From positions 11,227,730 to 11,291,729 of the forward strand of contig CAIIXF020000007.1 in NCBI GenBank assembly GCA_903813345.2: a DNA stretch of 64,000 nucleotides, given 5' to 3'. Shown one piece after another: positions 1-33,600 of this stretch. Numbering within the stretch: position 1 is the stretch's first letter; each line of letters begins with the position of its first letter. The notes beneath the pieces are model-generated. The model did no database searches. It saw nothing but the letters and a program-made list of their open reading frames with translations, and was not told the DNA's origin. This DNA is from Owenia fusiformis. Taxonomy: Eukaryota > Annelida > Polychaeta > Sabellida > Oweniidae. Made by a program: the position numbers and the translations under genes.

Positions 1-104
1 CGTTTTATCCAGTCCATCAAACCAGGACTGGGCCCACTAGGAAGCGTAAGGTAGAAAAATAACTCATCGCTTCCAGACTATCAGCAAAAGTCTGGAACGC
101 GACA
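1..104 (+). repeat. 5' LTR, 3'-terminal 104 bp only
   Basis: Identical to the last 104 bases of the 3' LTR (5798-5901) and ends in CA one base before the primer-binding site. The remaining ~1.8 kb of this LTR lies before the window. Confidence 0.9.
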
Positions 105-105
105 T

Positions 106-123
106 TGGTGTCAGAAGTGGGAT
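106..123 (+). promoter_or_regulatory. Primer-binding site, tRNA-Leu type
   Basis: TGGTGTCAGAAGTGGGAT begins two bases after the LTR's terminal CA. It starts with TGG, as a complement of a tRNA CCA tail should. From general knowledge it matches the 3' end of animal tRNA-Leu(CAA) over 18 bases. This marks the minus-strand DNA primer site of the retroelement. Confidence 0.8.
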
Positions 124-150
124 AAGTAAAACGATAGTACCGAGCACAAT

Positions 151-3100
151 ATGGCAACATCAGACACGGATACAAGCCGAGCTATGGAGAGCAAGCTCCA
201 AACAGATAGAGACATGGAGATGGACCTCCAATTAGATGGTGAAAAGACGGTGTTCTTCAAAGGACAACCAGGAGGTGATGACATGGTATTGGATGACACC
301 ATTCCTGTGGAAGATACGCCATCACCAAACAGGCCGAAGAGGGCATTTCCGCTGCAAAGTACTGGATACTGGTCAGGAACCGAGCAGCGGGTGCTATCAA
401 ATTATGCGACTCCACCAAGAGGAGCCCATGGTATTAATCAGCCAAGAACTTCTACTGAGGAGGTTCCAGTTAGCCGGATGAGTGAAGAATTGTTCACACT
501 GCAGAGGGAGCTGGTGTCACAGCAGCTCCAAACAACTTTGCTGACGAGCAGTGTGAAAGAGCAGGGAGAATGTGTACATGAACTGAGGAGGGAGCAACAG
601 ACGTTAAGGGGAGACTTGAGCCAAGGCCTTAACACGTTTCAACAGGATCTCTCCCTTGGGCTGAGTTCAGTTCATGGAGCCCTACAATCCATTGCCCAGA
701 CTATAGAGCAGTCAAGATCCCCACCAGAGGAGATAAGGAAACATATTCGGGGGAGCAGTTTTAACCCGATAGAACAGGAGTGGCAGATCTACCAGGATCC
801 CATCACAGATCACCAACTTAAGTCACATTCAAGTTACAGAGGAATAAGTCCCCGTGAGTGTGGGCAAGCCCAGTTAGAAGCTAACTTTCATAGAGAAGAC
901 ACACCAATGATGTTTGAGCCAGTCCCCGGGGAGGCGGGAGGTTGGCTGCCTCCATATTCGGTTCACGAGAGACGGGTAAAGCAGGAACAGGAAACTGCCT
1001 GTCAGCAAGATGACCCAGTACGCTCCACTTGGGAGAAACGGACCACGTATGGAGAGCCTCCACTGCCTCCTCCTGGAAGGAGATTTCAAGCTCATCCGAT
1101 GGAGGATAGGTCACATCTGGAAGGGGGGAGTAATTGCTCTATAAAAGGAATGCAGAGAAATCCAGTTCCCATGTTGTCATACGTTGAGGTTAGCAAAGAG
1201 TCGGGTGGTGCTGTGCCGAAACTTACTTCTTCGAGTAGAAGAGCAGAGAAAACAGTGGTGAAAGAAAGTCCTCAGCCAAGGTACAGACCTGAGTTGAAAC
1301 AGGCCACAATGACGGCGAACCCACACCTGGAACTACCATCTCGCAGTTCCCATAATGAGACAGCCAGAGTTACTCCAGAAGAGACAGCAACGGGAGCCAC
1401 GGGGCAAGAACAAGACTGTGAGCCTGATGTTTCTCCAGGTAAGAAGAGTCGGAATGAAGAAGCTTCAAATGCCTCTGATACTTCGGCGCTAGATTCTGTT
1501 CTGCAAATGGCTCAGAAAGCTATCGAAATTTGCGGAAAGGCAGTCGAATCGTCAAATACAGGGAGAAATACAAGGATAAAGCCTACACAAACGTTCGATG
1601 GGTCGAATCCCTGGCCAGATTACAAAGCATATTTTCAGACGTGTGTGGCAAATAATAACTGGACGGACAAAGAGAAGGCTCAGTATTTGGCCACCAACTT
1701 AAGAGGGGATGCCCAGCAGATTGTCCTGGAATTAGAGAGGGGCTACTCTTATGAAGACCTACTGGAAGCCTTGGAGAAGAGGTTCGGCCCAGGCGGCAAG
1801 GCAGATGTGTATGAGGCTGAGCTGTGCAGTCGAAAAAGAAAGCCCCGAGAATCTTTGCAAAGTCTAGGGCAACACATACGACGACTGACCTCCATGGCAT
1901 ACCCGGAAATGAGCCGGGATGTTCAAGATAGGCTCGCTCGCAGAAGCTTTGAACAAGCAATCCCAGATGAGGAGCTAAGGCGGGCCATACACAGTAAGGA
2001 GCCATCCACACTAGACAAGAGCATTGAAATTGCTCTTAGAGAGGAGAGCTATCAAGAGTCTGAGAGAATAAGACAAGGACTCAAAGGGATGACTAAGGAG
2101 CAAAGAATCTCGACAGTGGAAGAAGACTCATCTGAATTTACCAAGCTCTTACATGGATTAAAAAGGGAATTGCTGACGGAAATAAAGAATCTTCAAAACA
2201 AGGAGGAGAGCCCCAAACCCCAGGGAAAGGCGGGAACGAGATATCCCTGCAAGAGCTGCGGGGAACGAGGACATTCAATGACCTCTTGCTCACAAACCAG
2301 GTGTTACAACTGTGATGGTCTAGGTCATATTGCATCCTCTTGTCCTGAGCCTCGGCGACACCGTAATGATTCAAGATTCAGCAATACCAGCCCTATTAGG
2401 TTTTTGTTCAATAACAATGTTGACCTGCAGCCTGGTAGTAAGCAAGTGGTGCGGAAGATTCTTGCAGATGCAAAGTTTTGTGGAACTTCCATGCAGTTCC
2501 TCATTGATTCTGGGTCTGTGCAGAACATGATCAGCATAGAAAGCTACCAGAAGATACCTCTTTGTCGACGACCCAGTTTGAAGCCTCCGTCTCAAGTATT
2601 TGTACAAGCCGATGGCTCTCCCCTTTCCACATATGGGGAGATTACTGGAAAGATAAAGATAGAAGGGAGAACAACATTGACTACAGCAGTGGTAGCCGAT
2701 ATTGCTCAAGCTGGTATTCTGGGAGTAGAATACATGTTAACCAGTGGAGCTGTTATAAACTTCAACAAGTTGGAGATGTCTTTTGATGACGGAGAGATGA
2801 CAGAGCGACACCTTGTGCAAGATGAGCAGACTCAAAGAATGAATACGACATCATTGAATGCACCGAAGAAGCAGAAACAGCCATCCTCTGACCGAGCATC
2901 ATTACCACTTCCCATGCAAAGATCTAAGAAAAACGAGAGAAGAGTAACATTTACTGAGGTTCTAAAGCAGAATAAGAAGGCAGCCTTTGATAAGAATGTT
3001 GATGCTGAGGGAAGTGACCTGGAAGAGGAGGAAGCCAAAAAACCAAGAGTTATGGCCAGGGAACAACACAAGGAAGAGAATTCTACTGGGTCTGATCCAC

Positions 3101-3870
3101 CATACCCATTTGCCCCTCGGGTTTGTCAACTGATGGCAGACGAGGACATTCCACCCTATTCAAGTAAGCTGTTAAAGGTCCACATTGCTCCTACAGAGGA
3201 GGCAAGTCAGATGGGGATCATCGAATCGGTGTTACCAGATGCTCTAGAATCTGATGAAGTGGAGGTGGTTACTTCCCTGACTGAGGCACGAGATGGGATT
3301 GCTCTTATCAAGCTGAGGAATTGTTCTGCGCATCCAGTTAGATTGGAGATGGGCACAATACTTGGTGTGTTTAGCTCAGTGGAGAATCTAGTGTCTCATT
3401 TAGAAGAGCCCCCAGAAGCAGTAAATCGAATCTCGGAGAAGAGAGAGCCAGTGGACAAAGAGCCGATGGCAGGACAGTTGAAAAATTGTCCACTGATAGA
3501 AGAACAGGGGGAAAGAAATCCAGCCCTGTCAACTAAGCCCAGAAAAAGGAGGGGGAAGCATTCGAGGTCACAATTCAGGCCAAGGACCTGTGAGAGAAAC
3601 AAACCTGCAAACGAGTATGCCAGAAAGAGGATTCTGCACAGGGAGGGTTATCTCAGGAGCTCCTCACACCAGTGGTACTATCCAGCTAAGAGCTCCCCTT
3701 GTAAGAGGAACTATCCTTCTAAGAATTCATCGTACAAGGAGCATCCTCCAAAGAGCTCAATGCATCAGAAAACAAGTCCAATTGGTGCTCCTCCATGGAG
3801 CATACCCAAGTCAGCGAGCAAAACACAGAAAGACCAAGAGCCTCTGAGAGCTGACAAGCTCTTCCTGTAA
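151..3870 (+). CDS. Retrotransposon gag-protease polyprotein without RT/integrase
   Basis: Uninterrupted 1239-codon ORF starting 47 bases after the LTR end. Residues 1-470 are low-complexity and charged, with a probable coiled coil around 110-190. Residues ~480-640 look like a Ty3/Gypsy-type retrotransposon gag (capsid) domain. Two CX2CX4HX4C zinc knuckles begin at Cys700 and Cys718. A retropepsin-like aspartic protease follows: the active-site triad is Asp786-Ser-Gly and the second hydrophobic motif is Ile-Leu-Gly near 856-858. Residues ~990-1080 resemble the linker that normally joins protease to reverse transcriptase. RT is absent and is replaced by a very basic tail (to 1239) rich in Lys, Arg, Ser and Tyr. 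The product would assemble particles and cut itself but could not copy DNA alone. Gag-protease identity is confident; the role of the tail is unknown. Confidence 0.9.
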   Translation: MATSDTDTSRAMESKLQTDRDMEMDLQLDGEKTVFFKGQPGGDDMVLDDTIPVEDTPSPNRPKRAFPLQSTGYWSGTEQRVLSNYATPPRGAHGINQPRTSTEEVPVSRMSEELFTLQRELVSQQLQTTLLTSSVKEQGECVHELRREQQTLRGDLSQGLNTFQQDLSLGLSSVHGALQSIAQTIEQSRSPPEEIRKHIRGSSFNPIEQEWQIYQDPITDHQLKSHSSYRGISPRECGQAQLEANFHREDTPMMFEPVPGEAGGWLPPYSVHERRVKQEQETACQQDDPVRSTWEKRTTYGEPPLPPPGRRFQAHPMEDRSHLEGGSNCSIKGMQRNPVPMLSYVEVSKESGGAVPKLTSSSRRAEKTVVKESPQPRYRPELKQATMTANPHLELPSRSSHNETARVTPEETATGATGQEQDCEPDVSPGKKSRNEEASNASDTSALDSVLQMAQKAIEICGKAVESSNTGRNTRIKPTQTFDGSNPWPDYKAYFQTCVANNNWTDKEKAQYLATNLRGDAQQIVLELERGYSYEDLLEALEKRFGPGGKADVYEAELCSRKRKPRESLQSLGQHIRRLTSMAYPEMSRDVQDRLARRSFEQAIPDEELRRAIHSKEPSTLDKSIEIALREESYQESERIRQGLKGMTKEQRISTVEEDSSEFTKLLHGLKRELLTEIKNLQNKEESPKPQGKAGTRYPCKSCGERGHSMTSCSQTRCYNCDGLGHIASSCPEPRRHRNDSRFSNTSPIRFLFNNNVDLQPGSKQVVRKILADAKFCGTSMQFLIDSGSVQNMISIESYQKIPLCRRPSLKPPSQVFVQADGSPLSTYGEITGKIKIEGRTTLTTAVVADIAQAGILGVEYMLTSGAVINFNKLEMSFDDGEMTERHLVQDEQTQRMNTTSLNAPKKQKQPSSDRASLPLPMQRSKKNERRVTFTEVLKQNKKAAFDKNVDAEGSDLEEEEAKKPRVMAREQHKEENSTGSDPPYPFAPRVCQLMADEDIPPYSSKLLKVHIAPTEEASQMGIIESVLPDALESDEVEVVTSLTEARDGIALIKLRNCSAHPVRLEMGTILGVFSSVENLVSHLEEPPEAVNRISEKREPVDKEPMAGQLKNCPLIEEQGERNPALSTKPRKRRGKHSRSQFRPRTCERNKPANEYARKRILHREGYLRSSSHQWYYPAKSSPCKRNYPSKNSSYKEHPPKSSMHQKTSPIGAPPWSIPKSASKTQKDQEPLRADKLFL

Positions 3871-3973
3871 AGAAGGCACCAGGAGTCAGAGAGTGAAGAC
3901 AGTTATCAGTTACAGTACATTTGTTTTGATAATTTGCAGGAATTTTGTTTTATGTGAGGGCACATAAAAGCTA

Positions 3974-3982
3974 GAAGGGGGG
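3974..3982 (+). promoter_or_regulatory. Polypurine tract
   Basis: The purine run AGAAGGGGGG (about 3973-3982) sits two bases before the TG that opens the 3' LTR. This is the expected position of the plus-strand DNA primer. Confidence 0.65.
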
Positions 3983-3984
3983 TA

Positions 3985-5901
3985 TGTGGGAAAATTTCAT
4001 TTTTTGTGTTTGTCCTTTTTAATTTTCCCACTGGTGCAGATTATTGTTTAATTCAGTGTTTAATGGTCCATTTATTCAAGGGATGGGGAAACCCCTGCTC
4101 ACAAGTGGGTATTCCAAGACAGGAAGGGGAATCCCCTCAATTGCTGCAATGCAGTGCCCCTGATTTCAAAATGTGTTCACCTGTGCCTATGACTCATGCC
4201 ATCACATGATAGAGAAGGAAGGTCGCCATCTTGAAGGAAGCAGCGTGAATCAAAGGTTGGGAGGAAATCCACATTTATCACACTTTAGAGTAGCCATCTG
4301 CTAAGGATTCGGGATTAATAACGAATGATAAAGCGGGAAGACGCACCAGGAGGTTCTTGAAGGAGAAACAACAGAGAAAACCTGAATTTTTGGCAACTTA
4401 GAGAAAGAAGCATTTATTCGGGTGAGGTTTTTCCTTTTTGTTGATTTGATTTTATGGCCAGCATGCTACTAGATGCCTCTGACTGACTGTAATTTTTCAT
4501 TCCATGTGTACCAGAATTTGTAACTTCATGGCCAGCATGCTACTGAGATGCCTCTGACTGACTGTAGGTTCTAATTCATCGGGTATTGAGATCTACTGTG
4601 TGTCGCCATTTTGTGTCCCAGGCTTTCCAAAGTGAGATATTTGTCAGATTTAATGTAAAACAACACCGTGTCATTAATTGCCTAAAGTGTTGTCAAGAAT
4701 TCTTCACAGTTCAGTGCTGTCCTAGGGGAAGCAGCAAGGAACAACCTGCAAGCAGCCTTGCATTATCGTTAGGTGAAATTGGGAAACTTCCCAACACGGC
4801 GAACTAATTTTGTCAGTTGGTTTCACCGCTGACAGAAATAGTTCCAGGAAGACTTCCATCGCATCGGGCAGTGAGGAGTCTTCCCAGAAAACTCAAGAGC
4901 CATAGAGGCAGAGCAAGGCTAAAGAGCCAGAAGAGTCGAGTCAAGAGTCACAGTGAACTATTTTGTCAGTTGGTTTCACCGCTGACAGAAATAGTTCCAG
5001 GAAGACTTCTAGAGCAAAGAGCAGCTAGGAGCCTTCCCAGTAAGAAGAGGAACCAAGCTTAAGGGCTAGAGGAGCCAAGCTAAAGAGCTGGACGAGGAGC
5101 CAGAGGAGCCAAGTCCAGGAGCTAAAGGAGCCAAGCTTAAGAGCCAGAGGAGCCACGTTCAAGAGCCAGAGGAGCCAAGCTAAGGAGCCAAAGAGCTGGA
5201 CGAGGAGCCAGAGGAGCCAAGTCCAGGAGCTAAAGGAGCCAAGCTTAAGAGCTCAACGAAGAGCTAGAGGAGCCACGTTCAGGAGCCAGAGGAGCCAAGC
5301 TCAAGAGCCAGAAGAGCCAGGCTAAGGAGCCAAAGAGCTGGACGAGGAGCCAGAGGAGTCAAGTCCAGGAGCTAGAGGAGCCAGGCTAAAGAGCCGAAGA
5401 GCTAGAGGAGCCAGGCTAAAGAGCCGAAGAGCTAGAGGAGCCACGTTCAAGAGCCAGAAGAGCCAGGCTAAGGAGCCAAAGAGCTGGACGAGGAGCCAGA
5501 GGAGCCACGTTCAGGAGTCAGAGGAACCAAGCTCAAGAGCCAGAGGAGCCAAAGAGCTGGACGAAGAGCCAGAGGAGCCACGTTTAGGAGCCAGAGGAAC
5601 CAAGTTCAAGAGCCAGAGGAGCCAGGCTACAGAGCCCAGGGAGCCAAGCAAAGAGCTAATAACGCAGCAACCGCCGACATCCATCCTACAAAGAGAATTA
5701 TAGTGACATTTTAGTTTATGAACATTAAAGTGTTATTTTCCTGTATTAATAGTTGTGTAAAAATATATCTATTAAATTGGAAGCCATTTGTGACTGTCGT
5801 TTTATCCAGTCCATCAAACCAGGACTGGGCCCACTAGGAAGCGTAAGGTAGAAAAATAACTCATCGCTTCCAGACTATCAGCAAAAGTCTGGAACGCGAC
5901 A
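3985..5901 (+). repeat. 3' LTR, 1917 bp
   Basis: Begins TG at 3985 and ends CA at 5901. It is unusually long. It carries internal direct repeats (4454-4491 with 4528-4566; 4808-4856 with 4961-5009) and a long tandem array (about 5045-5650). Candidate polyadenylation motifs of the ATTAAA type lie near 5723 and 5770. It contains no ORF of note. The start is inferred from the purine tract because the 5' copy is outside the window. Confidence 0.8.
5045..5650 (+). repeat. Degenerate tandem array inside the LTR
   Basis: Many imperfect copies of a GAGCCAGAGGAGCCAAGC-type unit of roughly 18-24 bases, grouped into larger repeats that include GAGCTGGACGAGGAGCC. Copy number and register vary, so the array probably changes length quickly between insertions. 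Confidence 0.8.
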
Positions 5902-6299: not shown

Positions 6300-6756
6300 C
6301 TTGGGTGACAATGCATGGAAGACTTGTTTCTGTCAGTTCCTAAGACAAATATTACCAAAGTGTTGCCTAATTCAATATTCTACTGTTCATGCACAGCGCG
6401 ATGTTATCAATAGGTACAAACAATGTAATACTTGTAGAATTGTAAATCGTTACTCCCACACAAATATTGAAACTAAATTAATGGTCACGTAAGGGCTGCT
6501 TAGTGGGCATAGCCATAGTGCCTTCTTATTTTGGTGAATGAGTTGTAATCATTAGTCAATACAGTGAGATGGTACACAAAATGTGAAATGTTGGTTATAA
6601 TTTATAGTTTGTCTCTGCTAAAGCATTGCTAATTACCTGTGAACACACACAAATGAGAAAAACGGACCATCTAATAACATTTGATCGATTTTGGTATGAC
6701 CAAGCCAGATTCAGATCATCTTGTCTAGATCAATCTTGAGTCTGAGACTAAGCTAC

Positions 6757-7241
6757 AGTCTGTTACACTGCTTCAAAGGCAAGCAGTTGAACCCGAAAAA
6801 TAAGAAATCTAAAGACCATTGTGCCATAATATATAGAAAAATATATTCATATTGCACACGAATGACATTTGTATATTTCAGATTATTTAGTGTTTAGTGC
6901 AATAAGCATGTGCCCTCTTGTAATTTGATGTCTGTGCACCATGTTATTTATTTGAGAATTAACATGGTAGAGAAGCATCGAAATATAAGAGGTTACAGAC
7001 TTTATGAGCCAATTTACAAGCAATCTAACCAAACCCGTCTGGCCCAGTAATCTACTCTCGAGATCTACGATGTCAGGAGTAGATAACTGGGCCAGACGAG
7101 TTTGGTTACAAGCAATCAAACATATACAAATGTCATTCGTGTGCAATATGAATATATTTTACTATATGTTATTGCATAATGGTCTTTAGATTTCTTATAT
7201 TTCAGGTTTAACTGCTTGCCTTTGAAGCAGTGTAACAGACT
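6757..7241. mobile_element. MITE with ~110-bp terminal inverted repeats, family A copy 1
   Basis: 6757-6880 is the imperfect inverse of 7120-7241 (outer motif AGTCTGTTACACTGCTTC). The interior matches the element at 25573-25967, including a shared stretch around GTGCAATAAGC and the inverse-arm motif AATGTCATTCRTG. It is non-coding. A smaller palindrome is inserted at 7026-7108. Confidence 0.8.
7026..7108. mobile_element. 83-bp palindromic insertion with 9-bp target duplication
   Basis: It starts TAACCAAACCCGTCTGGCCC and ends with the near-perfect complement, giving arms of about 30 bases. CAAGCAATC flanks it at 7017-7025 and 7109-7117. The related MITE at 25573 has only a single AAGCAATC at this point, which is a natural empty site. 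Confidence 0.8.
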
Positions 7242-7540
7242 TTAAGTCAAATGACTGTCACTGACTGCCTGAGTAAGTGACAGAGTGAAGTCTAAGTAGG
7301 GCTATAAACTTGGAAAATATTGAGATTTAGTTGGATTAGAGTCTAGAACGACATAAATCACGGTTCCAGGAAGAAGATTTACCCCCCCCCCAGTCACTGT
7401 ATAATGTACCTAATAATTAGTAATAGATCTACATGAAGATAAATACACCAGAAAATAAACTAAATCTAAGGCTCAGCTGGAAAGTAACATTTTGGTAAAT
7501 TGCTATACCTGCACATGTTATTTTCTGATACAAAATTAAG

Positions 7541-7902
7541 TATGAAGGCATGTGTGTATTTCCTTGCTTTTTTCAGGAAAGTATCATTACACTGTCTACT
7601 TTTAGTAAACCTGGAAACAGGTCAATGGTAGCTCCTGTGTTGTCTGGAAACTTTGAAAGAAAATTTGGAAAAATAGAAAGTGTTTAATATCAGAATTTCC
7701 TGGAGTTCCCATTGAATTTCTACCAGATATTCTAAAAGAAGACAATGTAATCACAGTCAGAGAGAATGTTTCTGGCGAAATTCTGGGACTTCAAATACTT
7801 TTATAAATATAGTTCCAGGGCAATTCGAAGAACGTATTAGATGTCCGTGAATGTAATGATACTTTCCTGAAAAAAGCAAGGAAATTGGCACATGCCTTCA
7901 TA
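7541..7902. mobile_element. Nested MITE, ~52-bp inverted ends
   Basis: 7541-7592 (TATGAAGGCATGTG...) is the imperfect inverse of 7847-7902, sharing the run TTCCTTGCTTTTTTCAGG. About 250 bases of unique non-coding sequence lie between. Confidence 0.7.
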
Positions 7903-8230
7903 TTTTACTACGCAAACCTTAACTACTTACACTAATATTGCCACTATGTGCTAACATCCACCATTGAATCTATCTATGGCCAACTTCCCGGGAATTTCTT
8001 GAGCATATTACACTGTGCACCCCCGCACAAATGCCCGGATATTCCTCAAATTATTCCGCCATTTTCCTTCTGTAAAGACGGAAATTTTAGAATCGCAATA
8101 AATTTACAAATAACTTGTGACTATGAACACGGAACTGGGAAGTTAGTTGTTCTACAGGTTCATCAGTTACAAATGAAAGTAAGAGGACGAGGAAAATAGA
8201 TCATATGGAACTATAAGACAAGTTTTCAAG

Positions 8231-8890
8231 GTTTTTTCTTTGGGTTGTTAGTCCACAAAGAAAACATCTGATCTATAAAATGTCGAAGATCTTACCTCGT
8301 TCGTTTTATCTTTGCTTGCTCCATATAGGGTCTTCAGTCCCGACATGAGATTATAGTAAGCATATGGAAAAGGTCTCTAGTGTCAATTGACCTTTTTTCC
8401 AGACAATTTGTCATATTAAATGACAATTTCTCTGGGGTCATTAGACCATCAGAACACATCATGTACAGAGAACGAAATAGTACATGTTCTTCTCTGTGTT
8501 ATGTTACATGTGAGAGGTTTTCAATCCAGATAAGAAAGTAAGGAAGCCCGAAGAAGGTAGACACTGTGTTTATGCCTTGCAGTACCTTGCCTTACACTGA
8601 GGTGTTTCTTTTGGTTGTCAGTCCATAAGAAAACATTATCTGTTCAAGTTTACCCAGCTCTCAATTTTTCGTCTCTGTATTCATCACATAAACGTGTTCA
8701 GTTCCAGATGAATATGAGAAATTTGAAAAATATCTATATCTGAAGATGGCTTCAGACAGTCAGAGGTGTTTTTGGTTGTCAGTCCACAATGAAAACACAT
8801 ACGTGTTCAGGAGAACGCAGACGAAATGGCTTCTTTACTGCTCATGTGTTTTTTGGTTGTAAGTCCACAATGAAAACACATACGTGTTCA
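8231..8890. repeat. Four diverged copies of one hairpin unit
   Basis: Copies start near 8231, 8602, 8766 and 8845. Each has the pattern GTGTTTT-TTGGTTGT-CAGTCC-ACAA-GAAAACAC, i.e. a stem closed by GTGTTTT/AAAACAC and TTGT/ACAA with CAGTCC in the loop. The last two copies are about 80 bases apart and both are followed by the small palindrome AACACATACGTGTT. This is the only obvious repeated hairpin in the array. Confidence 0.7.
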
Positions 8891-11800
8891 TAAGAAGTTA
8901 TCACCTCTTTTCTTCATGCACAGTTTATAAAAGGACTCCAGTCCCTATATGAATTATGTAATAAACATGAAGAAATAACTACACCAGTAAATTTGTCTTC
9001 CAGGATTTGACATGTGTCATGCATGGACTGCATGATCCTAGGATGAAGAAGATATTTCTTCATCTTACAGTAGCGTGATCACAATAAGATGTTCAGATGA
9101 AGACACTTGGTTCACATACATTTAAATGTATTTAGAAAATATAACCGTATGTTGTAAAATCTGGTGTAGTATTCATGTAATGTTGCATACATAGAACACG
9201 TATGCTGACCACAGCTGTATAATTGGTTTATTTAGTCCATTCAGTTTTATACTAGTTCTGCGCAGCAGGATAAGTTTGTCAATTATCCATTTGGTTCAGT
9301 TATTTCTGGACTGAGTTGTTTGTCTACTGTTCAGAAAGAGGATAGGCTAAAGATTAACAAGAGTAACTGTAAGATTAACAGTAGGTCTACTGTGAAGTCG
9401 TCATCTTCTTCACAGAAAAGACCAATATAGCATTTTTAGCCTACTCATCTTCCAAGTAGATGTAAAATCTTTTCGAATCAGAGACCTATAAGTTATGGTC
9501 TCTGTTTGAGCGTTTCTGTTTTCTCCAAGTAATGGTACATGTTGCTATTAATATATGCTGAAGAAAACGATTCATGGATGCTCACAATCATCCTGTTATT
9601 GGTTGATTCAGTCTCTTCAACAAAGAAGTAGAAGGTGACTTAGATTGTTTTAGTTTTTGAGTCTCTAGACTAGGCCTATCCTTCTAGCCATATTAGCCAA
9701 CAACTGAACAACACAAGTACTTATTCATATAAGAAGTGTTGTAAGCGTTGACAAATGACAATGTCATGAACTTGTCATTTCTGACTGAAATCTTTTTTCT
9801 CAGGAATCATTTCTGAATACTCCTATTTAGCAGTTTAGACTCTATTCCTGGAATTTTAACATTCAGAATTGAGTTGGCGGAAGTACCTTCGACATAGGTT
9901 ACTTTCTCCAGATGCTTCTCATAAAGCATTCAACTCAGAGTTAATTGTTTGAGGAATTAAGATTACAGTCGAGGTTTTTTGAAAACTTAAACATTTGGCG
10001 GTTTTCAGTTTGCCAGATAAAGTAAGGTTATGTCTAAAACATCACCTCCGTGAAGGTTTTGTTTCCTTCATTTTACTTGGCCTTGGCAGCTTTTGAAGTC
10101 AAAAGTTGATTTTTGAAGTCTAAGATTACTTTTCAGATCTCTTGTAAGTCAGTTCAAGAGACTGTAAATCAAATTCTGTGCTTTCCCCTACAACCTTGGG
10201 TGTTATTCCAAAGGTTTTATTTTGTGATGAGGGGAAGTAGTTATACTTACTTATAACAAGTCCCTATATTTGTATTCCAGACCATGGGCCTGTTTGCTAC
10301 CACATCACACACAGAATGAATATTTGTTTATTTTGACCTTGTTCAGGTTGCTCAGAGTATAGTCAAAGTGATTTTTAAACACGGTTTAAGTATAATCAGT
10401 GTTTTACTGAGCCAGTCTCAGTCATGACAGTATCATCATCAACAGGTTCACAGTCGTGCCGTGCTTCTGTGTAATCTTTTGTGTCTTAAATAGCCACACC
10501 TTCACTTTAAGTCATGGTATCATCAGTGTTCAGTTCAATCACTATTTGAGAGATCTTACATGTTGTTTAGAGGTTTATGTTTTTCACCATGGAATCATTG
10601 TTACCATGTTTCCTTGGTGGTAGAACCTCAACACATCATTTAGTGGTACTGAAGTACTATATACTCGAGAGCTAGTGTACTCTTTGTTATAGACATGGTT
10701 TCGTTTGTCTTGACATGAGCTCTTCCAAACAAGAGATTCAGACTTACCTTTTTACGCATTGGTCAATTAATATTAACAGTGGCAATTTTTTCACACATAT
10801 GTCTTGTCGTGATCAAATTTTGACCAAGTTATTTTTGTAACAGTCTCATGATTTTAAGAATCACAGACATCCTCTGCTGACTGTTATACATATGATCTTT
10901 AACGGAAATCTCAGTTTTCCGTGTGGTTTTGGAGATATTTCTATACGAATTATCTTCTACTCCATCTATACTTTATCAAATAGTTTCATTTTTGAGACAG
11001 TACATTTTTTAAGATGTTGTTCTGAGTAGAACACTGAGTTAAGGAATCGTTCTGCCCTGAGACTAGTAATGTCACTACCCCCTTAATAGGACAAATATAC
11101 ATCTAAGGTTTATGATGTCAAGATTCCAAGTAATTAACAAGGCATTTTGGTGCCCTGTCACAGGAATGTTATTCTCAGGAACCACATAGTCATCGGTTCG
11201 ATTCCTATTAGCTACTGTAGTTTAGTGCTGTTTGCCTATTCTATTTGGCAATTGAATAAGGCTTTTAACGTTGCTTTATTTTCCTCTGTACCATTCATAT
11301 TTGAGGCAGATGGTGGTCAACCTCTTGAGGTGTTTAACAGAGGATTTCAATGCGAGAATAATTCTCGTTATATTTATACATGTTATTGGAACGGTTCTTG
11401 AACACTTACTAGGTAGATGAAAGTTGCCCAAGAACATTTTTGTGTTCAAAGATGCAAATCATAACGTAGTTGTCATATCCACGTTGCTTGACAGCTAGAT
11501 TTCCTTCAAAATCAGGGTTCATTTTCAACAAGAGAATGTGAAACACCTGTAGATTTTAAGGATGAGAAGCGTGATGGGGTTTTTAACACCTATATTGCAA
11601 GAAAGCAATATTGTGACATCTGACACTACAGTTCAATTGATGTGTAATACTATTAACTATTAGACATCAAGACGTCTCACTTGAATTGTTTGTTGTTTCT
11701 GATTCAAAGATTATTGATGTTTAGAACATCATAGTCTCATTAATGTGAGTTTGCATTTTAATGAGTTTATTTACTCATATTTTAGTGATAGTATACATGT

Positions 11801-13290
11801 TTGTTTATGACTAAACAGCAATATTAGAAGATACATGAAACGTATATCTTCCCCAGCAACTTTGTGGATAAATTGCAGGTGTTTCTTACCAAGAGACGCA
11901 GAGTTTTTATCACACTATATATGCGATAAGACTAGAATGCTACTGAATTACTTGGTAGTCGTCTTATTTACCTGTAATTGTTGTAAATCGAACTCTCTAA
12001 TGATATTTCTATCATGATATCGTACAAGATTATGCTTTACTAGTCTAGTAAACTTTCTGATGTCAGCATATATCAGAGGAGGGTTTTCAGAACCAGTTCC
12101 TAAATGATCTTGTCCTGATAACTTCTTCTAGAGTCGAATGATTCTTTAAGGTTTTGAGTTAGTGTTGTGAATCAGTTGAACTTATTCACTCTAAACCATT
12201 ATAATCCCTTTCTTGGGTTTGTACCAAGATCTAGGATTGTATTCAGCAGGTATCATTTAGACATGTTTGGATACATGACTATCTAATTAACCGATTTTTT
12301 CAGAAAGTGTTCGGTAATATGCAAGTTTTATTGTTGAATTGTAAACAACCAAGCATACTCGACTAATAAGGAGGGTGTACATGGGTTCTTCAATGATTGA
12401 ACATGTGATCCTAATGGCAATGAGTAAATGATGAATCTCTACGTAGTTTATCATTCAGACACAGCTTAGCCTTTAAGGGTTACAATGCTTTGCAGAAGCA
12501 CTTATACCAGATGTTTAATATTTAATGTAATTTGGGATTTCGGAGAAATCCCAAGAATATTTAAACAACTGGTGTTCAAAGTTCGAATATCATAAAGAGT
12601 CCAACATATGGTAACCGATGTAGTACTTAGTCTCACCTTTACTCAAAAGAGAGAACGAAAAGTTTGCATTGATTTGAAGAACCAGATACATTTAAGGAAC
12701 TTCAATAAAATTCCTTTAGATCTTTGGATCAAGCAATTATTAGCTGTTATCTATACATGTACAAGGTATACAGAAGTATACACATGTAGCTGTTAAAGAA
12801 GGGTCGAAAACGTTATGTCAAGACCAGTAACTACTTCTTCAATCTTTGTTTCTAGAAGTCGAGTGGAAGATATGTTTAAAGCAGGCACAATGGGCAGCTT
12901 AATTTACTTCCAAGTCATGTATGTAAGTCTAGGACTATGCAAGAAGATATTCTGACATTTTTCTTAACTTTATGGCCAATCAGAATGTCAGAATTTGTAC
13001 TGTGGTATAAGTTCGTTGTTGACCTTTGGTGGTTGAATTACCCCGCCATAGATAGACGTCCGTTTTTTATCATAGTGGCCAATTGAGTCATATATGAAAT
13101 AATACTCAGTAGTTTTTTAGCATAGTGAATCTGTATAATTAGTTTTGTTAAGTGTTTAACACAGTTTAAACATTTCACCCCAGAACTTGTATTTGGTTAC
13201 TAAGTTCCTTAGTCCCGAAGGCTTTAGGATGTAAAGTTGGGTTACCTAAAGTTGTAGGGTTGATCAATTTGTAGTTTGTTGCAAATTTAT
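8231..13290. other. Dense array of short, unrelated stem-loops (hairpin-array core)
   Basis: About 5 kb without ORFs, made almost end to end of short inverted repeats with different sequences. Stem arms seen by eye include 8366-8375/8389-8400, 8408-8414/8420-8426, 8739-8745/8750-8756, 8909-8918/8966-8975, 9042-9050/9056-9064, 9390-9397/9408-9415 (with 9384-9388/9419-9423), 9479-9486/9497-9504, 9753-9761/9772-9780, 10138-10144/10155-10161, 10838-10845/10879-10886, 10902-10908/10916-10922, 11282-11289/11337-11344, 11592-11598/11605-11611, 11637-11643/11664-11670, 11715-11721/11725-11731, 11827-11833/11845-11851, 12036-12042/12046-12052, 12427-12435/12447-12455, 12532-12540/12546-12554, 12754-12760/12782-12788, 12949-12959/12984-12994 and 13222-13228/13245-13251. 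Most stems are perfect, 6-11 bp, with loops of 3-15 bases. At least thirty were found. Chance would give only a few 7-bp stems with short loops in 5 kb. Transcripts of either strand would fold into a chain of hairpins. Function is unknown. Confidence 0.7.
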
Positions 13291-13390
13291 TCTATTCCCG
13301 TGGTCTTTCTGCTGTTTAACCCACCGCCTACTTGGCTGGGATTCAGCACATAGTGGCAATATTAGTGTAAGTAGTTAAGGTTTGCGTAGT

Positions 13391-13690
13391 AAAATCTTAA
13401 AATTTAAAGTAATTTTAGTTTTTATTAGTAAACCATACTTACCTAATATTGCCACTACAAATATGTCCCTCCCTCCTCCTCCGCTTACAGCAGAATGTTC
13501 ATAATTGTTATAGCGGAATAATTGAGGAATATCCGGGCATTTGTGCGGGGGTGCACAGTGTAATATGCTCAAGAAATTCCCGGGAAGTTGGCCATAGATA
13601 GATTCAATGGTGGATGTTAGCACATAGTGGCAATATTAGGTAAGTATGGTTTACTAATAAAAACTAAAATTACTTTAAATTTTAAGACTT
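13391..13690. mobile_element. Nested ~300-bp inverted-repeat element
   Basis: 13391-13458 is the inverse of 13625-13690 (motif ACTTACCTAATATTGCCACTA and its complement). The interior 13490-13622 is a flipped copy of 7946-8060, sharing GGTGCACAGTGTAATATGC. It interrupts the right arm of the large inverted-repeat element. Confidence 0.7.
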
Positions 13691-14519
13691 TATTATGTAC
13701 CAGAAAATAACATGTGCAGTAGCCAGGTAGATCTAGTATGTATCCAACAGACTGACTAGAAGTCAGTCTGTTATGATGTACTACTTTCCTGTGGAAATTG
13801 CAGTGAAATTTTTTGCACAAAATTATCAATTAGAGGAACCATGTGTTCTATAAAATAAACATTACAAAATTTAAATAAAATAGTAAGGTACAATTAAATG
13901 CAATAAAAAGTAACACAGCATATTGTCAAGTGGAAATAAAGCTAGTTGAAGTAAAAAATGTGCAAATTAATTTTACCCAATCGGCCATTTTGAATAGCAC
14001 TTCCTATGTAAACAAATATTTTGGATTACCATACTTTAACATAGGTGCCTTATAGTCTGAATATAATTCAGACTAAATAGGATATAGTCTACAGGTAGAT
14101 CTATAGCAATTTTTACCAAAATGTTATTTTCCAGCTGTACCTTAATATTTTCCAAGTTTATACTTAGCCAATGTGATTGACAATTATATGGTCTTCAACA
14201 GATAGTTATACAAACTGAGAAAAAGAATAGAAGAAGAGTGTTTTAGTTGAAATAATCATAAATGTTTACGTCGTTAGGGTAAATCGCTTTACGCCATTTT
14301 GTCCGAAAAACTGTCACGTGATATTAAGATGAGAGTAAGATTTTTTGATGCAAGTAAAAGGGGATACTGATTCTGTTTGACCTTATATTGATAAATAAGA
14401 TAAATTGAAAGTACTATATACACCTACTTTGATCATTGGAAAGAGTAAACCATATTAAACAAGAATAAATATCTCACTCTCGAACAAATTTCAAAATGTC
14501 ATGTGACTAAAACTTTTAA

Positions 14520-25572: not shown

Positions 25573-25967
25573 TAGAGTCCATTTCACTGCTTCATTTCGT
25601 CAGTAGAACGGCAAAAATAAGAAATTGGGAGACCATTGTGCAATAATATATGGAAAAGTATATTCATAATGTACATGAATGACATTTGTATATTTCTGAT
25701 TTTTTAGTTTTTTGTGCAATAAGCCTGTGCCGTCTTGTAATTTGAAGAATTTCAGCCATGTTAATCTTATTGAAAATAACATGGCAGAGAAGCATCCAAA
25801 TATAAGAGGCCACACAATTTATAAGCCAAACTAGAAGCAATCCAAGATACACAAATGTCATTCATGTACAATAGGAGTATATTTTTCCATATATTATTGC
25901 AAAATGATATTTTGATTTCTTATTGTTTAGCTTTTACTGACGCAGTTAAACAGTGAAATGGACTCTA
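25573..25967. mobile_element. MITE family A copy 2
   Basis: Ends TAGAGTCCATTTCACTG and its complement. The body matches 6800-7200, including the internal GCAATAAGC and AACATGGYAGAGAAGCATC segments. It lacks the 83-bp palindrome found in copy 1 and so serves as the empty-site allele. Confidence 0.8.
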
Positions 25968-27326
25968 GGAAAACATTTTTCGTTTCTGTAATGGGTTTCA
26001 GTAGAATAACTGACAACAGGCAAAAAGGATGAAAACAATGCAAAATTATAGTTGGCCAATTTTGATAAAAATAACTGGAGAAAATGCCTTTTGAGATTTA
26101 TGTGGCACCACCCAACTAGACAGACGTACAATCATCAGTATGAGATGACAACGATATAATATTTTGAAAAGTGTGATAAAAAACATGAAGCAAGCACTAA
26201 AGACACCTTGTTACATCACAAAACCAATATAGAGTTTAAACCACTTATATTATAGTCCTATCCAATGTTATTATTTCAGCTAATAATAAGCCTGGGGAAA
26301 AGTCTAAAATCATGTGTTAGACAAATTATAATAAATGCTTTGTTTTTAAGCTTTATATCATAAAATAATCCCGTCTAATTTAGAAATTATGTTTATTGTA
26401 GCTAGTTTATTGTAACAAATGTAATATGGTTCCTATTTTGATACATATTTTTGATTGGTGCTTATGAATGTCTAATTATCCTAGACTGAAATCAAAAAGC
26501 AGTTTTAGGTTTATGGTGGGGATAAATCATTTTTAGTAGTGATTGACCAAATGGAGGGATCTTTCATTCTAATGGATTTCATTTCAGAATAACCATTTGA
26601 AAATGCAGCCTTGCTAAAACTGACAATAAGGTGTGTCTTGTTTTTCAATTCCAATGAATTTAGTCATTTCTGCATATCAAATTTTCAATAACTTGTATCT
26701 TTGATGAGATAACTCAATTCTTTTTTCAGAAACTAAAATAACATATGGCATGATTTTTGTAGACTGATTCCACCATCTTACACTCTCTATATCCCTTACA
26801 TCTCTTTGAGATGTTCCCTGACCTACATTTGAACCACTCAAACAAACAGATGTTACATTATTATGTCATAGATAAACATTTATTGCATTTTACAACTCAA
26901 ATATTTTCAATAAAATAAAATATTACACATATACTAGAAGTATCACATGATTAGCATGATATTCTTTACAGCAATACAGTTTTACATGCACAAATTTTCA
27001 AAATACCATATATGATGGTAAATTAAAGTTGAATAAAAATGAAAATACATACCCTCATTTTTGAGTAAATAATAATCCATTCTATGATCCATGTCAAAAC
27101 TCATTACCATTAGTAAACCCTAAGTATCAATATTCTGATGGATTTGTTTTGATCGAGGTACATCTTTAGTTTAAGAGGATCACATTCTTATATTGCAACT
27201 CCCATACTATAAATGCAGGCCCATAGCTGGGATCTAAAATTAGATGGGCAATTTGAATAGGCGAGGCAAAAATTGAGGTGAAGCACTGCAATACTGTCAA
27301 TTCAATTTCATATTCAAGGTACATGG

Positions 27327-27374
27327 TAGCCTTGCCCAAGTCGGTATTTTTAGAGACCGACTTGGGCAAGGCTA
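27327..27374. mobile_element. 48-bp perfect palindromic insertion with 9-bp target duplication
   Basis: A 19-bp perfect stem (TAGCCTTGCCCAAGTCGGT) with a 10-base loop, flanked by GGTACATGG at 27318-27326 and 27375-27383. The same object appears at 30878-30925 because of the tandem duplication. It resembles the 83-bp palindrome at 7026 in having TA-RCC ends, arms that pair almost fully and a 9-bp duplication. Confidence 0.75.
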
Positions 27375-28837
27375 GGTACATGGCTACATCCATGAATTGC
27401 CAACCAAATTCCTATAGGCTTGAATAAAACCCAGAAACAGCTTATCATTGTGTTAAAGATGACAGAGTTACAATTCAGTAAATAATTCATAATTTCAAAA
27501 TCTGCACCAATTAGGCTAAATGAACAGAAGCTAAAGCTTGTCATAATTGTTATCATAAGTTAATCTAAGTATTTATCCAAATGTGTACATGCACAGTGAT
27601 AAGATAGAATTTTGAATCATCATTCATTGGATGCTATGTTATATCCCACCATATTTCTAGACATTGGGGAGTTTAAGATTAGCGTAAATAGCTCATTTAT
27701 GGATACCTATGCAGAGTTAAACTGAATCATGTGATCTAATTATGCGCAATGACTTATACATGATTTCTTTTGCAGTGTTGAGACAGCCAATCAGATTGCG
27801 AGTTCTTAATCGGGGAAATGCTAACTGCTTATCGCAGGGGGTGAAAAGAAAGAATATATTCTGGATTTTGAAGCCCTGTGATCGGAGGATGATGTTTTAT
27901 CTGACAAATTATGTCAGTAATAAAATATCATTCATAAAACTTCATGTTAACTTTAAACAATTTTTATTCGATCGTATAAGAAATTAAGTGGTCGAACACA
28001 ATTGTCTGTGATAAACAATGCCACATGATGATGCATGAAATTGTTGAATTTACACATTTTTTATCAATTTTGCTTATTGTAAATGTGTGATTTTACTTAG
28101 TTATTCTCTAGTGGTTTAGATTGTTTTATCTTGTCACTATCATTGTTGTTTATGCTAGAAATTTATAATTTCCCCTCATTGTCACTTCCCCATTAGCAAC
28201 ATCCCCATTGCAGAAGCTAAATCATTACACAATTATACAATTTGTTGCCATGGTATCATTTATTGCCCTGAAAATAACAGTTATGTAAATGCAATACTAG
28301 CCACCATGGTTTTTGTTTTATAATTAAGATGTCATTTGCATACCCTTACATAGCATTTTACTTCTTAAACTCATTAAATACAAGACGCATTACCAATACA
28401 TATTCCTAATAAAAAAAATATGGATAGGTATACACATTTTAACTCACTATTCTCACATCCATTCTTATTGATATTTTGGTAAAAAAGTGTGATTTCTATG
28501 AAAGTATGACAGTATGTACAGTAATGTAATTACACAAATAGCATAGGTGATGACCAGAGGTTCGTTATACATTTAGTACTGGAGCCTGTAACCAGAATTA
28601 ACTTAGAGAGGTAGGCAGATGAGTATAAAAGTGAATTAGATACTTCAAATGAAGCGTTGTTCTTTTGAAAAGTTTGACATATCTCCTGGACCATTCTTGA
28701 GTTACTACAATTTGTTATCAGAATGCAAAGAGCAACTCTGTTTTACATGATTTGTTTCTAACATTGACTTATATAAAATATTCAACACATTGAGAATGAT
28801 TAAATTGATTGAGCCCAATTGAGAGATGCCAGATGTT

Positions 28838-30608
28838 TCATGAATTGCTACCAAATCCACCAGTAATCGCTGCATCCATAAGTTCATCATCAAGCATGAG
28901 GGGTGAGGAATGGGGAGATGGGGTATGAGTCTTAACAAGGTCTTTAGCCCTAGCGGGAGATACACTAACACCCACCCCAACTATTGTATTCGACACACTG
29001 GGTGAGGCTGTCCTTGCAGGGGCTCCCGACACTCCTTCAGATTGCACCTGTTCTGTGTTATTTGGCGTCGGGGAGATTGTTTTTGGTTGAGGTGTAACAG
29101 TACGTTTCACCAAGGGTGATATCGTATTTGATTTAGGCGTATTAGGAAAATCAATAACAAGGCCTGGACTGCCTTCACTGTTGGGACTCAGAGGGACAAG
29201 TCTCCTTTGTTTTGGTTCAATTATAGGAGGACTAATTGGCTCAATCCTCTGTTCAATTGGAGAAAGTGGTGGTCGTTCATCTTTAGGGTTAACATTACCA
29301 GATGGTGGGAAAGAATCACTGAACTGTGGTACAAGTGCTGGAATATCATTACCATTTGAATCATCAGGACTAATCAAATCAATCTCAACAGGTCCCTTGT
29401 TATTAACATTAACTGAGAGTTTTGGAGTTGCTTCAGATTTTGGTCTGAGATTTTCTGTTGGTTTACTATTTGTGTCTGGATTTGCTTTCCCTTGGGTATG
29501 AAGAGGTGATTGCGATTTTCTCTTCTCCATTTCTTGAAGGGTCTGAAACAAACCCTTTCTCTCACCTGAAATCCTGGCATCAAGCTTTGATTTATCATCA
29601 CTATCTGTGCCTATCACTTGTTTAGATGGATCAATTGGGACTTTGGGGGTATCTTTTATGGGTTCCATTTGACCAGTTTCTTCATTCAAGACTAAGCTCT
29701 TCGCAGGCATCATGGGAACATTTACACTCTCAGATTTTCTTGGCATTGCAGGAGTGTTAACATTTTCAGGTTTTCTTGGCATTGTAGCATTATTAGCACT
29801 TTCAGTTTTTCGAGGCAATGTAGGAATAATATTTTCAGGCTTTTTAACATCAGGAGTTTTCAGGATACTCTTTTCAGGTCGAGTTGGGGTCGAGACTTTG
29901 GTGTTTGGTGTTGAACTTTTTGAAATAGAACTTGGAACCTTTGAATTAGGGGTGGATACTTTAGAATTAGGGGTAGAAACTTTTGAATTTGGGGTAGTTA
30001 CTTTGGTATTAGAGGTAGCAGATTTGGATGAGTCTTTAGTGGGTGTACTAACACCTGTACTTGGCTTTGACTGTTTGGTTTTTGACAGATCTAATTTCAT
30101 CACTGATTTCTCTTTAGCTATAGATTCACTAGATCTCTTTTCTTTACTGGGAGTATTACTGGTAGGTTTGCTCTCAAAGGAAACAATCTCCGGTTTTCTC
30201 TCAAGAACTTTGAATTCTGTAATTTGCTGTTGGGGCTCATGAGATTTTGATTGTTGTTTGGTTGCTAATCTGTCTATGACAGCAGAGAGGGAGCCCTTTC
30301 TAGATTTGGTGGCCTTACCTAAGCCTGACACACCAGAGTTGGGTGTAGGAGTAGTTGGAGTTGGTGGGGTAGCAGATGGTGGGGTTCTATGCGGAACTGG
30401 AGGGGCAGACACTGGTGTAGTGGGGCCTTTGGATGGTTGGACATTATACAAGCTCTGGGCACCAGTTTTTGGAGGTACAGTGATTGGTTTTAGTTTCAAA
30501 GTTGGAGTTTTTGTCATCATTTTAGAATCCTCTTTTCTCACAGTGATTGGCCTATTTGATGGCCTGGCTGATGATTTAGAGCTACTTTCTGACCCAGTTC
30601 CTGATGAG
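28838..30608 (-). pseudogene. Truncated duplicate of the MED1 3' coding exon
   Basis: It repeats the last ~590 codons of MED1, including the acidic C-terminal LMLDDELMDAAITGG motif and stop, without any upstream exon. The open frame continues upstream through the duplication junction to a chance ATG at 30661, giving a chimeric 607-codon ORF whose first ~20 residues come from downstream flank. There is no promoter or splice acceptor of its own. It is probably untranslated, unless MED1 transcripts read through. Confidence 0.8.
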
Positions 30609-33600
30609 TTTTTGAGTAAATAATAATCCATTCTATGATCCATGTCAAAACTCATTACCATTAGTAAACCCTAAGTATCAATATTCTGATGGATTTGTTT
30701 TGATCGAGGTACATCTTTAGTTTAAGAGGATCACATTCTTATATTGCAACTCCCATACTATAAATGCAGGCCCATAGCTGGGATCTAAAATTAGATGGGC
30801 AATTTGAATAGGCGAGGCAAAAATTGAGGTGAAGCACTGCAATACTGTCAATTCAATTTCATATTCAAGGTACATGGTAGCCTTGCCCAAGTCGGTATTT
30901 TTAGAGACCGACTTGGGCAAGGCTAGGTACATGGCTACATCCATGAATTGCCAACCAAATTCCTATAGGCTTGAATAAAACCCAGAAACAGCTTATCATT
31001 GTGTTAAAGATGACAGAGTTACAATTCAGTAAATAATTCATAATTTCAAAATCTGCACCAATTAGGCTAAATGAACAGAAGCTAAAGCTTGTCATAATTG
31101 TTATCATAAGTTAATCTAAGTATTTATCCAAATGTGTACATGCACAGTGATAAGATAGAATTTTGAATCATCATTCATTGGATGCTATGTTATATCCCAC
31201 CATATTTCTAGACATTGGGGAGTTTAAGATTAGCGTAAATAGCTCATTTATGGATACCTATGCAGAGTTAAACTGAATCATGTGATCTAATTATGCGCAA
31301 TGACTTATACATGATTTCTTTTGCAGTGTTGAGACAGCCAATCAGATTGCGAGTTCTTAATCGGGGAAATGCTAACTGCTTATCGCAGGGGGTGAAAAGA
31401 AAGAATATATTCTGGATTTTGAAGCCCTGTGATCGGAGGATGATGTTTTATCTGACAAATTATGTCAGTAATAAAATATCATTCATAAAACTTCATGTTA
31501 ACTTTAAACAATTTTTATTCGATCGTATAAGAAATTAAGTGGTCGAACACAATTGTCTGTGATAAACAATGCCACATGATGATGCATGAAATTGTTGAAT
31601 TTACACATTTTTTATCAATTTTGCTTATTGTAAATGTGTGATTTTACTTAGTTATTCTCTAGTGGTTTAGATTGTTTTATCTTGTCACTATCATTGTTGT
31701 TTATGCTAGAAATTTATAATTTCCCCTCATTGTCACTTCCCCATTAGCAACATCCCCATTGCAGAAGCTAAATCATTACACAATTATACAATTTGTTGCC
31801 ATGGTATCATTTATTGCCCTGAAAATAACAGTTATGTAAATGCAATACTAGCCACCATGGTTTTTGTTTTATAATTAAGATGTCATTTGCATACCCTTAC
31901 ATAGCATTTTACTTCTTAAACTCATTAAATACAAGACGCATTACCAATACATATTCCTAATAAAAAAAATATGGATAGGTATACACATTTTAACTCACTA
32001 TTCTCACATCCATTCTTATTGATATTTTGGTAAAAAAGTGTGATTTCTATGAAAGTATGACAGTATGTACAGTAATGTAATTACACAAATAGCATAGGTG
32101 ATGACCAGAGGTTCGTTATACATTTAGTACTGGAGCCTGTAACCAGAATTAACTTAGAGAGGTAGGCAGATGAGTATAAAAGTGAATTAGATACTTCAAA
32201 TGAAGCGTTGTTCTTTTGAAAAGTTTGACATATCTCCTGGACCATTCTTGAGTTACTACAATTTGTTATCAGAATGCAAAGAGCAACTCTGTTTTACATG
32301 ATTTGTTTCTAACATTGACTTATATAAAATATTCAACACATTGAGAATGATTAAATTGATTGAGCCCAATTGAGAGATGCCAGATGTTTCATGAATTGCT
32401 ACCAAATCCACCAGTAATCGCTGCATCCATAAGTTCATCATCAAGCATGAGGGGTGAGGAATGGGGAGATGGGGTATGAGTCTTAACAAGGTCTTTAGCC
32501 CTAGCGGGAGATACACTAACACCCACCCCAACTATTGTATTCGACACACTGGGTGAGGCTGTCCTTGCAGGGGCTCCCGACACTCCTTCAGATTGCACCT
32601 GTTCTGTGTTATTTGGCGTCGGGGAGATTGTTTTTGGTTGAGGTGTAACAGTACGTTTCACCAAGGGTGATATCGTATTTGATTTAGGCGTATTAGGAAA
32701 ATCAATAACAAGGCCTGGACTGCCTTCACTGTTGGGACTCAGAGGGACAAGTCTCCTTTGTTTTGGTTCAATTATAGGAGGACTAATTGGCTCAATCCTC
32801 TGTTCAATTGGAGAAAGTGGTGGTCGTTCATCTTTAGGGTTAACATTACCAGATGGTGGGAAAGAATCACTGAACTGTGGTACAAGTGCTGGAATATCAT
32901 TACCATTTGAATCATCAGGACTAATCAAATCAATCTCAACAGGTCCCTTGTTATTAACATTAACTGAGAGTTTTGGAGTTGCTTCAGATTTTGGTCTGAG
33001 ATTTTCTGTTGGTTTACTATTTGTGTCTGGATTTGCTTTCCCTTGGGTATGAAGAGGTGATTGCGATTTTCTCTTCTCCATTTCTTGAAGGGTCTGAAAC
33101 AAACCCTTTCTCTCACCTGAAATCCTGGCATCAAGCTTTGATTTATCATCACTATCTGTGCCTATCACTTGTTTAGATGGATCAATTGGGACTTTGGGGG
33201 TATCTTTTATGGGTTCCATTTGACCAGTTTCTTCATTCAAGACTAAGCTCTTCGCAGGCATCATGGGAACATTTACACTCTCAGATTTTCTTGGCATTGC
33301 AGGAGTGTTAACATTTTCAGGTTTTCTGGGCATTGTAGCATTATTAGCACTTTCAGTTTTTCGAGGCAATGTAGGAATAATATTTTCAGGCTTTTTAACA
33401 TCAGGAGTTTTCAGGATACTCTTTTCAGGTCGAGTTGGGGTCGAGACTTTGGTGTTTGGTGTTGAACTTTTTGAAATAGAACTTGGAACCTTTGAATTAG
33501 GGGTGGATACTTTAGAATTAGGGGTAGAAACTTTTGAATTTGGGGTAGTTACTTTGGTATTAGAGGTAGCAGATTTGGATGAGTCTTTAGTGGGTGTACT

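Follow-up and report, generated by a model that had tools for sequence, protein, structure and literature searches.

The 64,000-nucleotide stretch of Owenia fusiformis DNA analysed here (the window) covers C7:11227730-11291729 of a 498 Mb assembly in 525 contigs, C numbers being contigs of that assembly. It contains a 5,788 bp element on the plus strand at positions 7902–13689, which starts with ATT, finishes with ACT and shows no genes that could be found. The sequence suggests, with a probability of roughly 0.8, that this element belongs to a young, non-autonomous family of DIRS1-like (tyrosine-recombinase) retrotransposons that carries a hairpin-dense core inside. Its limits are drawn from its termini, its internal complementary regions, an empty site and its presence in multiple copies. 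An earlier note had described positions 8231–13290 as a run of short hairpins. These positions are indeed hairpin-dense and the hairpins do lie in a mobile element, but the structure belongs to the wider element, and the DIRS1-like termini had been missed.

DIRS1-like elements, as set out in the portions of PMC3266345 drawn on here, have inverted terminal repeats (ITRs) with conserved and divergent parts, and two 3′ internal complementary regions (ICRs) that overlap on a 3-bp junction. At least 10 nt are common to both ITRs and both ICRs, NTT is present at both ends in 23 of the 28 published elements, and integration is without target-site duplication. A self-comparison of the window gives nested inverted repeats that resolve into a single pattern of this kind. 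The divergent part of the left ITR is at positions 7902–7931 and matches the left ICR; the left terminus 7902–7952 is the exact reverse complement (51/51) of the left ICR at 13345–13395. The conserved part, 7932–8049, is complementary at 118/118 positions to the conserved part of the right ITR (13522–13639, minus strand). The right terminus, 13640–13689, consists of the divergent repeat and a right extension and is complementary to the right ICR at 13393–13457. Positions 13625–13689 match the reverse complement of this ICR at 64/65, and the sole mismatch is within the terminal trinucleotide. Both ICRs are near the 3′ end of the element and overlap at the circular junction AAT (13393–13395), and the reverse complement of 13345–13457 reads as the right end, then ATT, then the left end, i.e. 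as a circle junction. The 15-nt sequence TAGTGGCAATATTAG is found without mismatch at exactly four sites in the window, which are both ITRs and both ICRs. Because the ICRs are situated at the right, the RNA is expected to correspond to the plus strand.

The ATT start of the window copy is the commonest published start. Terminal trinucleotides of ten other copies, read by eye, show an NTT start, and the five copies with a readable right end finish with ATT, AAT or ACT. The target site is an older repeat, whose left half (7852–7901) is interrupted by the element and resumes at 13687–13719. When the flanks are joined, they match the reverse complement of the other arm of this older repeat (7509–7560) with zero bases duplicated. 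Thus no target-site duplication is found at the window insertion, the one insertion for which an empty site was reconstructed from an interrupted repeat. The older-repeat arm recurs in part at L015:444-545 with 83% identity. The repeats of the element are inverted; neither split direct repeats, a trait of Ngaro- or PAT-like elements, nor direct long terminal repeats (LTRs), a trait of plant LARDs (large retrotransposon derivatives), were found in it.

The element is repeated in the genome. Its left part (669-base query) is found at a minimum of 24 places, the window included, that cover at least 661 bases at 95–100% identity; this is a lower bound from 40 of 62 candidates scored. For the right-end block of 345 bases, 40 of 68 candidates were scored. 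These give at least 24 places over 343–345 bases at 97–100% identity and four further places at 78–83% over most of the block (C6:3511466, C2:597583, C2:8729653 and C8:11195247), the others being partial. Ten copies (L029–L038) were fetched. Eight of them group in a second clade, at a distance of about 4% from the window copy, to which L038 is 99.2% identical. The alignment rows suggest that L037 (C11:34378914-34384800) has an inverted internal stretch relative to the other copies. At C10:29351024-29360548 and C1:22803849-22811025 the ends are approximately 9.5 and 7.2 kb apart, above the usual 5.8 kb, and some copies on C8, C11 and C3 likewise have ends further apart. These may carry insertions or be longer variants.

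No coding capacity was detected in the core (8063–13344), and gene-lessness is read here from the core of the window copy. The longest stop-free runs are 87 codons on the plus strand (92 expected in shuffles) and 60 on the minus strand, no more than in shuffles. With reduced stop-codon sets no long frame set opens; the longest is 359 codons with TAA as the sole stop. Pfam gives no credible match in the ten longest of 31 open pieces of the core (best E-value = 0.16), and Rfam gives no family at gathering score (best E-value = 0.68). Neither a long frame nor a credible domain for gag, for reverse transcriptase, RNase H and methyltransferase (RT-RH-MT) or for a tyrosine recombinase is present in the window core. 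Thus the element is classed as non-autonomous, and as DIRS1-like by its termini only. No phage relatives of the element were found, and viral contigs likewise gave none for one 28-base terminal pattern.

The core is instead filled with local stems. The three stems named in the earlier note are all present: TTGGGATTTC/GAAATCCCAA at 12532–12554 (10 bp), AAATGACAA/TTGTCATTT at 9753–9780 (9 bp) and an 11-bp stem at 12949–12994. Between 8231 and 13290 there are 60 perfect stems of 7 bp or more with loops of 3–60 nt, where 21.4 are expected (35 vs. 11.4 for loops of 3–30 nt and 25 vs. 10.0 for loops of 31–60 nt). There is no excess over expectation for such stems in these positions with loops of 61–250 nt, and a slight one for loops of 251–500 nt (115 vs. 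92.8). Inverted 7-mers with a gap below 60 nt number 98 vs. 33 expected, and direct 7-mers 53 vs. 37. The excess is stronger on the 5′ side, with 67 stems of at least 6 bp vs. 32 at 8001–10000 and 74 vs. 50 at 10001–13000. Recurring spaced trinucleotide motifs and a composition bias of the arms were each tried and rejected, as was a chaining of palindromes beyond independence (14 vs. 11.9 expected without a tandem pair, 6-mers).

Folding energies agree with the stem counts. All 21 consecutive 250-nt windows of 8063–13344 give a folding z below 0 against shuffled sequence on both strands, with means of −1.81 and −1.84. Comparison with other DNA of this genome was made with 48 control blocks of 5 kb, 40 from 20 other 10-kb loci and 8 from the window. 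The core ranks first both in median z (−1.91 vs. −0.96 for the lowest control block) and in the ratio of inverted 7-mers (3.15 vs. 2.70 for the highest). Counting against its distinctness, a few background stretches reach a similar median z at the 1.5-kb scale (L011, −2.07; L015, −1.88), and in the background itself close inverted 6-mers are at 1.2–1.3 times expectation. It is therefore the length of the structured stretch that stands out. Three other copies were folded and have structure similar in degree to that of the window copy (plus-strand z: L029, −2.14; L031, −1.49; L037, −2.09; window copy in the same run, −1.69). The genomes of MS2 and Qbeta, used as controls, resemble the core in having a signal on both strands and an excess of local stems, with stronger energies (z of −3.6 to −4.5). 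Such an excess is slight in the 16S and 23S rRNA of E. coli.

One hairpin is repeated. Four 40-nt units, at 8230–8269 (loop with GGTTGTnAGTCC), 8600–8639, 8761–8800 and 8842–8881, all on the plus strand, are situated within the first kilobase past the left repeat, as the earlier note had seen. Conservation among them is highest in the loop, and the arms are variable; folded singly, the units give z values of −3.2, −2.2, −1.3 and −2.3. A covariance model of the unit finds exactly four strong matches in the window (next best E-value = 0.57) and nothing under an E-value of 0.3 in 220 kb of background. The other stems mostly differ from one another. A role of the unit in protein binding or packaging is a guess.

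The pol of DIRS elements includes a methyltransferase, and a Dam domain is described in Xenopus (parts of PMC3266345 and PMC9210276). The Dam family has 26 places in this genome, 12 of them within open frames of more than 700 codons, and among 14 control genomes it gives a match in E. coli only. At L039, a 725-codon frame contains RVT_1, RVT_3 and Dam (under its curated cut-off), and a separate frame contains a phage-integrase domain. A second locus, L040, adjoins, upstream, a right end that is 83% identical to that of the element. One L040 frame has a weak Dam match (E-value = 0.0047, 17 bits vs. a cut-off of 28.1), and an overlapping 581-codon frame aligns along the L039 recombinase with the HxLR and GRW motifs kept. 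The L040 3′ sequence also matches, by blastn at 76–89% identity, three pieces of the last 400 bases of the core (12931–12997, 13030–13057 and 13170–13339, within 12931–13339). The genome thus contains a coding element whose right end is related, and we infer that L040 or its kin mobilises the gene-less family. The relatives also supply points that weigh against the proposed reading. Inverted terminal repeats were not seen in the 7-kb stretch of L039; its domains therefore assign it to the DIRS order only, not to the DIRS1-like class. The 581-codon frame of L040 has no Pfam match, integrase included, and its assignment as a recombinase comes from a weak alignment (21% identity, E-value = 0.037). 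L040 is known from a 2.06-kb stretch only. A third locus, L028 (C4:8998000-9002700), is a tyrosine-recombinase (YR) retrotransposon. It has an RT frame, a recombinase frame and one of gag size, and its direct repeats are split (A1/A2, 99.4% identity; B1/B2, 99.6%).

The earlier note had offered two origins for the hairpins, selection to fold or a process that writes local inverted copies. Selection finds some support in substitutions polarised among five copies (L037 was dropped from this test and from the shared/private count given below). The observed substitutions cost 53 kcal/mol of folding energy on the plus strand vs. 104 at random (Z = −2.08) and 52 vs. 105 on the minus strand (Z = −2.23), about half in each case; L031 alone among the five shows the opposite trend. 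An unpolarised comparison of the window copy with the other clade gave Z values of −2.1 to −4.2 and is discounted because its differences are not polarised. Substitution rates within stems are less favorable to the proposed reading. Derived substitutions fall on 36 of 775 sites in stems of at least 7 bp vs. 260 of 4425 outside (ratio 0.79, p = 0.21); the ratio is 0.93 for stems of at least 6 bp and 0.78 for minimum free energy pairs (p = 0.07). Shared-derived changes show a stem ratio of 0.65 and private changes one of 0.88, neither significant. There is no bias to G-U over A-C in the copies (10 vs. 9), and a hint of such a bias in the stem counts was not borne out by them. Only two independent double changes are found, and both restore pairs. 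Taken with the similar structure of the copies, these results give modest support to a reading as weak selection for folding without preference for the RNA strand. Such indifference to strand agrees with an element whose cycle includes an RNA stage and a single-stranded circular DNA stage.

The foremost alternative retains a DIRS1-like, non-autonomous family and takes the hairpins as functionless, a by-product of reverse transcription or of single-stranded circles (snap-back copying, template switching) in DNA on which coding places no constraint. We regard it as a serious contender, though a somewhat doubtful one. Perfect stems are favored in 8-bp windows (34 vs. 8.2 expected) over those with one mismatch other than G-U or A-C (97 vs. 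65.3), the folding signal is strand-symmetric, the copies lack a G-U bias, and template switching has been proposed to make perfect stems (the part of PMC8794818 consulted). But the substitutions of the polarised test disturb folding less than random ones do, and insertions and deletions lack an enrichment of inverted copies. Near the 79 gap blocks of at least 5 nt among 11 copies, some of which come from the apparently inverted stretch of L037, an inverted copy of 7 nt or more is found in 14% vs. 12% in controls; direct copies are commoner (16% vs. 7%). Writing of local inverted copies is thus unsupported by recent events. A neutral origin of the hairpins by copying errors is possible.

A further alternative, which seems rather unlikely, is that genome-scale structure is an old trait of the DIRS lineage, coding members included, and was inherited by the gene-less family. 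The 2 kb of L040 fall in between (z of −1.38 and −1.50; 7 of the 8 windows are below 0), and structure may thus be a trait of this lineage. By contrast, the coding parts of L039 (−0.25) and of the split-direct-repeat element (−0.27) are ordinary, so that a structured sequence is no general property of such elements in this genome. The signature on both strands with local stems in MS2 and Qbeta also favors an inherited trait. Against it, the evidence consists of 8 windows of one relative, and the nucleotide homology detected with the core lies only in the 3′ part of L040. A terminal inverted repeat DNA transposon, or a foldback element, whose core is structured would account for the long inverted repeats at both ends, but it is contradicted by the ICR and circular-junction layout and by the duplication-free empty site and is very improbable. 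A diverged satellite of a single hairpin unit, which the four-copy unit might suggest, is more improbable still, as the covariance model finds those four strong matches only in the window and no strong one in the background, and close direct 7-mers are little enriched.

For the non-autonomous DIRS1-like family, the published DIRS1 model suggests a course of replication. Proteins of a coding relative would reverse-transcribe the element RNA, the ICR would splint both cDNA ends to give a circle, and the recombinase of the relative would insert the circle at a trinucleotide. Given DIRS1-like termini, the fold would most naturally act on the genomic RNA and the circular DNA that this model includes. 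The hairpin-dense core may have taken the place of the genes, and it may owe its retention to better copying, packaging or stabilisation of an RNA and/or single-stranded DNA that is compact, locally folded and of nearly full length. More speculative, and in our judgement rather unlikely as a whole, is a retrotransposon lineage in which pervasive local folding is selected on the RNA and on the single-stranded DNA circle. Its gene-less members would be maintained by fold and termini alone, as parasites of DIRS1 elements by RNA structure only, and the four-copy 5′ hairpin, with its conserved loop and variable stem, would be a possible encapsidation signal.

Other repeats are present in the window. 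The right flank of the element carries an unrelated 358-bp insert at 13734–14091, bounded by 10-bp direct repeats CAGGTAGATC at 13724–13733 and 14092–14101; a copy with 96% identity is found on another contig (L011:2107-2463). Positions 27058–30608 and 30609–34159 form a 3,551-bp tandem duplication with 99.97% identity that overlaps large open frames and is either very recent or an assembly artefact. Direct repeats at 1–104 and 5798–5901 are 100% identical and bound a segment (1–5901) with a 1,239-aa frame that displays a CCHC zinc knuckle, no polymerase domain having been found in the frame, and with a repeat array on a 22-bp base at 5046–5656. This segment is read as a gag-type LTR retrotransposon, possibly without pol. 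Two related long-inverted-repeat elements, at 6754–7244 and 25573–25967, are 82% identical over 246 bp.

Among known systems, the element is closest in its termini to DIRS1-like elements, which are tabulated from Aplysia, Lottia and Capitella among others, with an annelid case reported (tabulated portion of PMC3266345). It shares with them the ITR parts, two ICRs with a 3-bp overlap, the right extension, an NTT start and the lack of a target-site duplication, and its 5.8 kb falls within their range of 3.8–6.3 kb in the rows of PMC3266345 examined. It differs in that no gag, RT-RH-MT or YR genes are found and the interior is non-coding and hairpin-dense. The Ngaro- or PAT-like L028 copy is of the same tyrosine-recombinase order, but its repeats are split and direct where those of the element are inverted, and its coding part is not hairpin-dense. 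MS2 and Qbeta resemble the element in that both strands outfold shuffles and local stems are in excess, and differ as coding RNA genomes with lower z. Searches of open-licence PMC papers, the wider one covering titles and the beginnings of abstracts, turned up no DIRS element described as non-autonomous. The nearest comparison is with LARDs and TRIMs of plants, retrotransposons without protein genes that are assumed to be mobilised in trans, and of which LARDs specify well-conserved RNA structures (PMC7215508, as far as consulted). These are LTR retrotransposons, whereas the element shows DIRS-type inverted repeats and ICRs and is found in an animal. The family, DIRS1-like by its termini, apparently gene-less and with a structured core, is thus comparable to plant LARDs. 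DIRS1 elements would have a LARD-like parasite in a recent gene-less family that is about as long as a complete DIRS element and dense in hairpins at its core. Its presence at no fewer than 24 places, alongside coding elements of the order within a single genome, makes the RNA requirements of the DIRS copying machinery testable.

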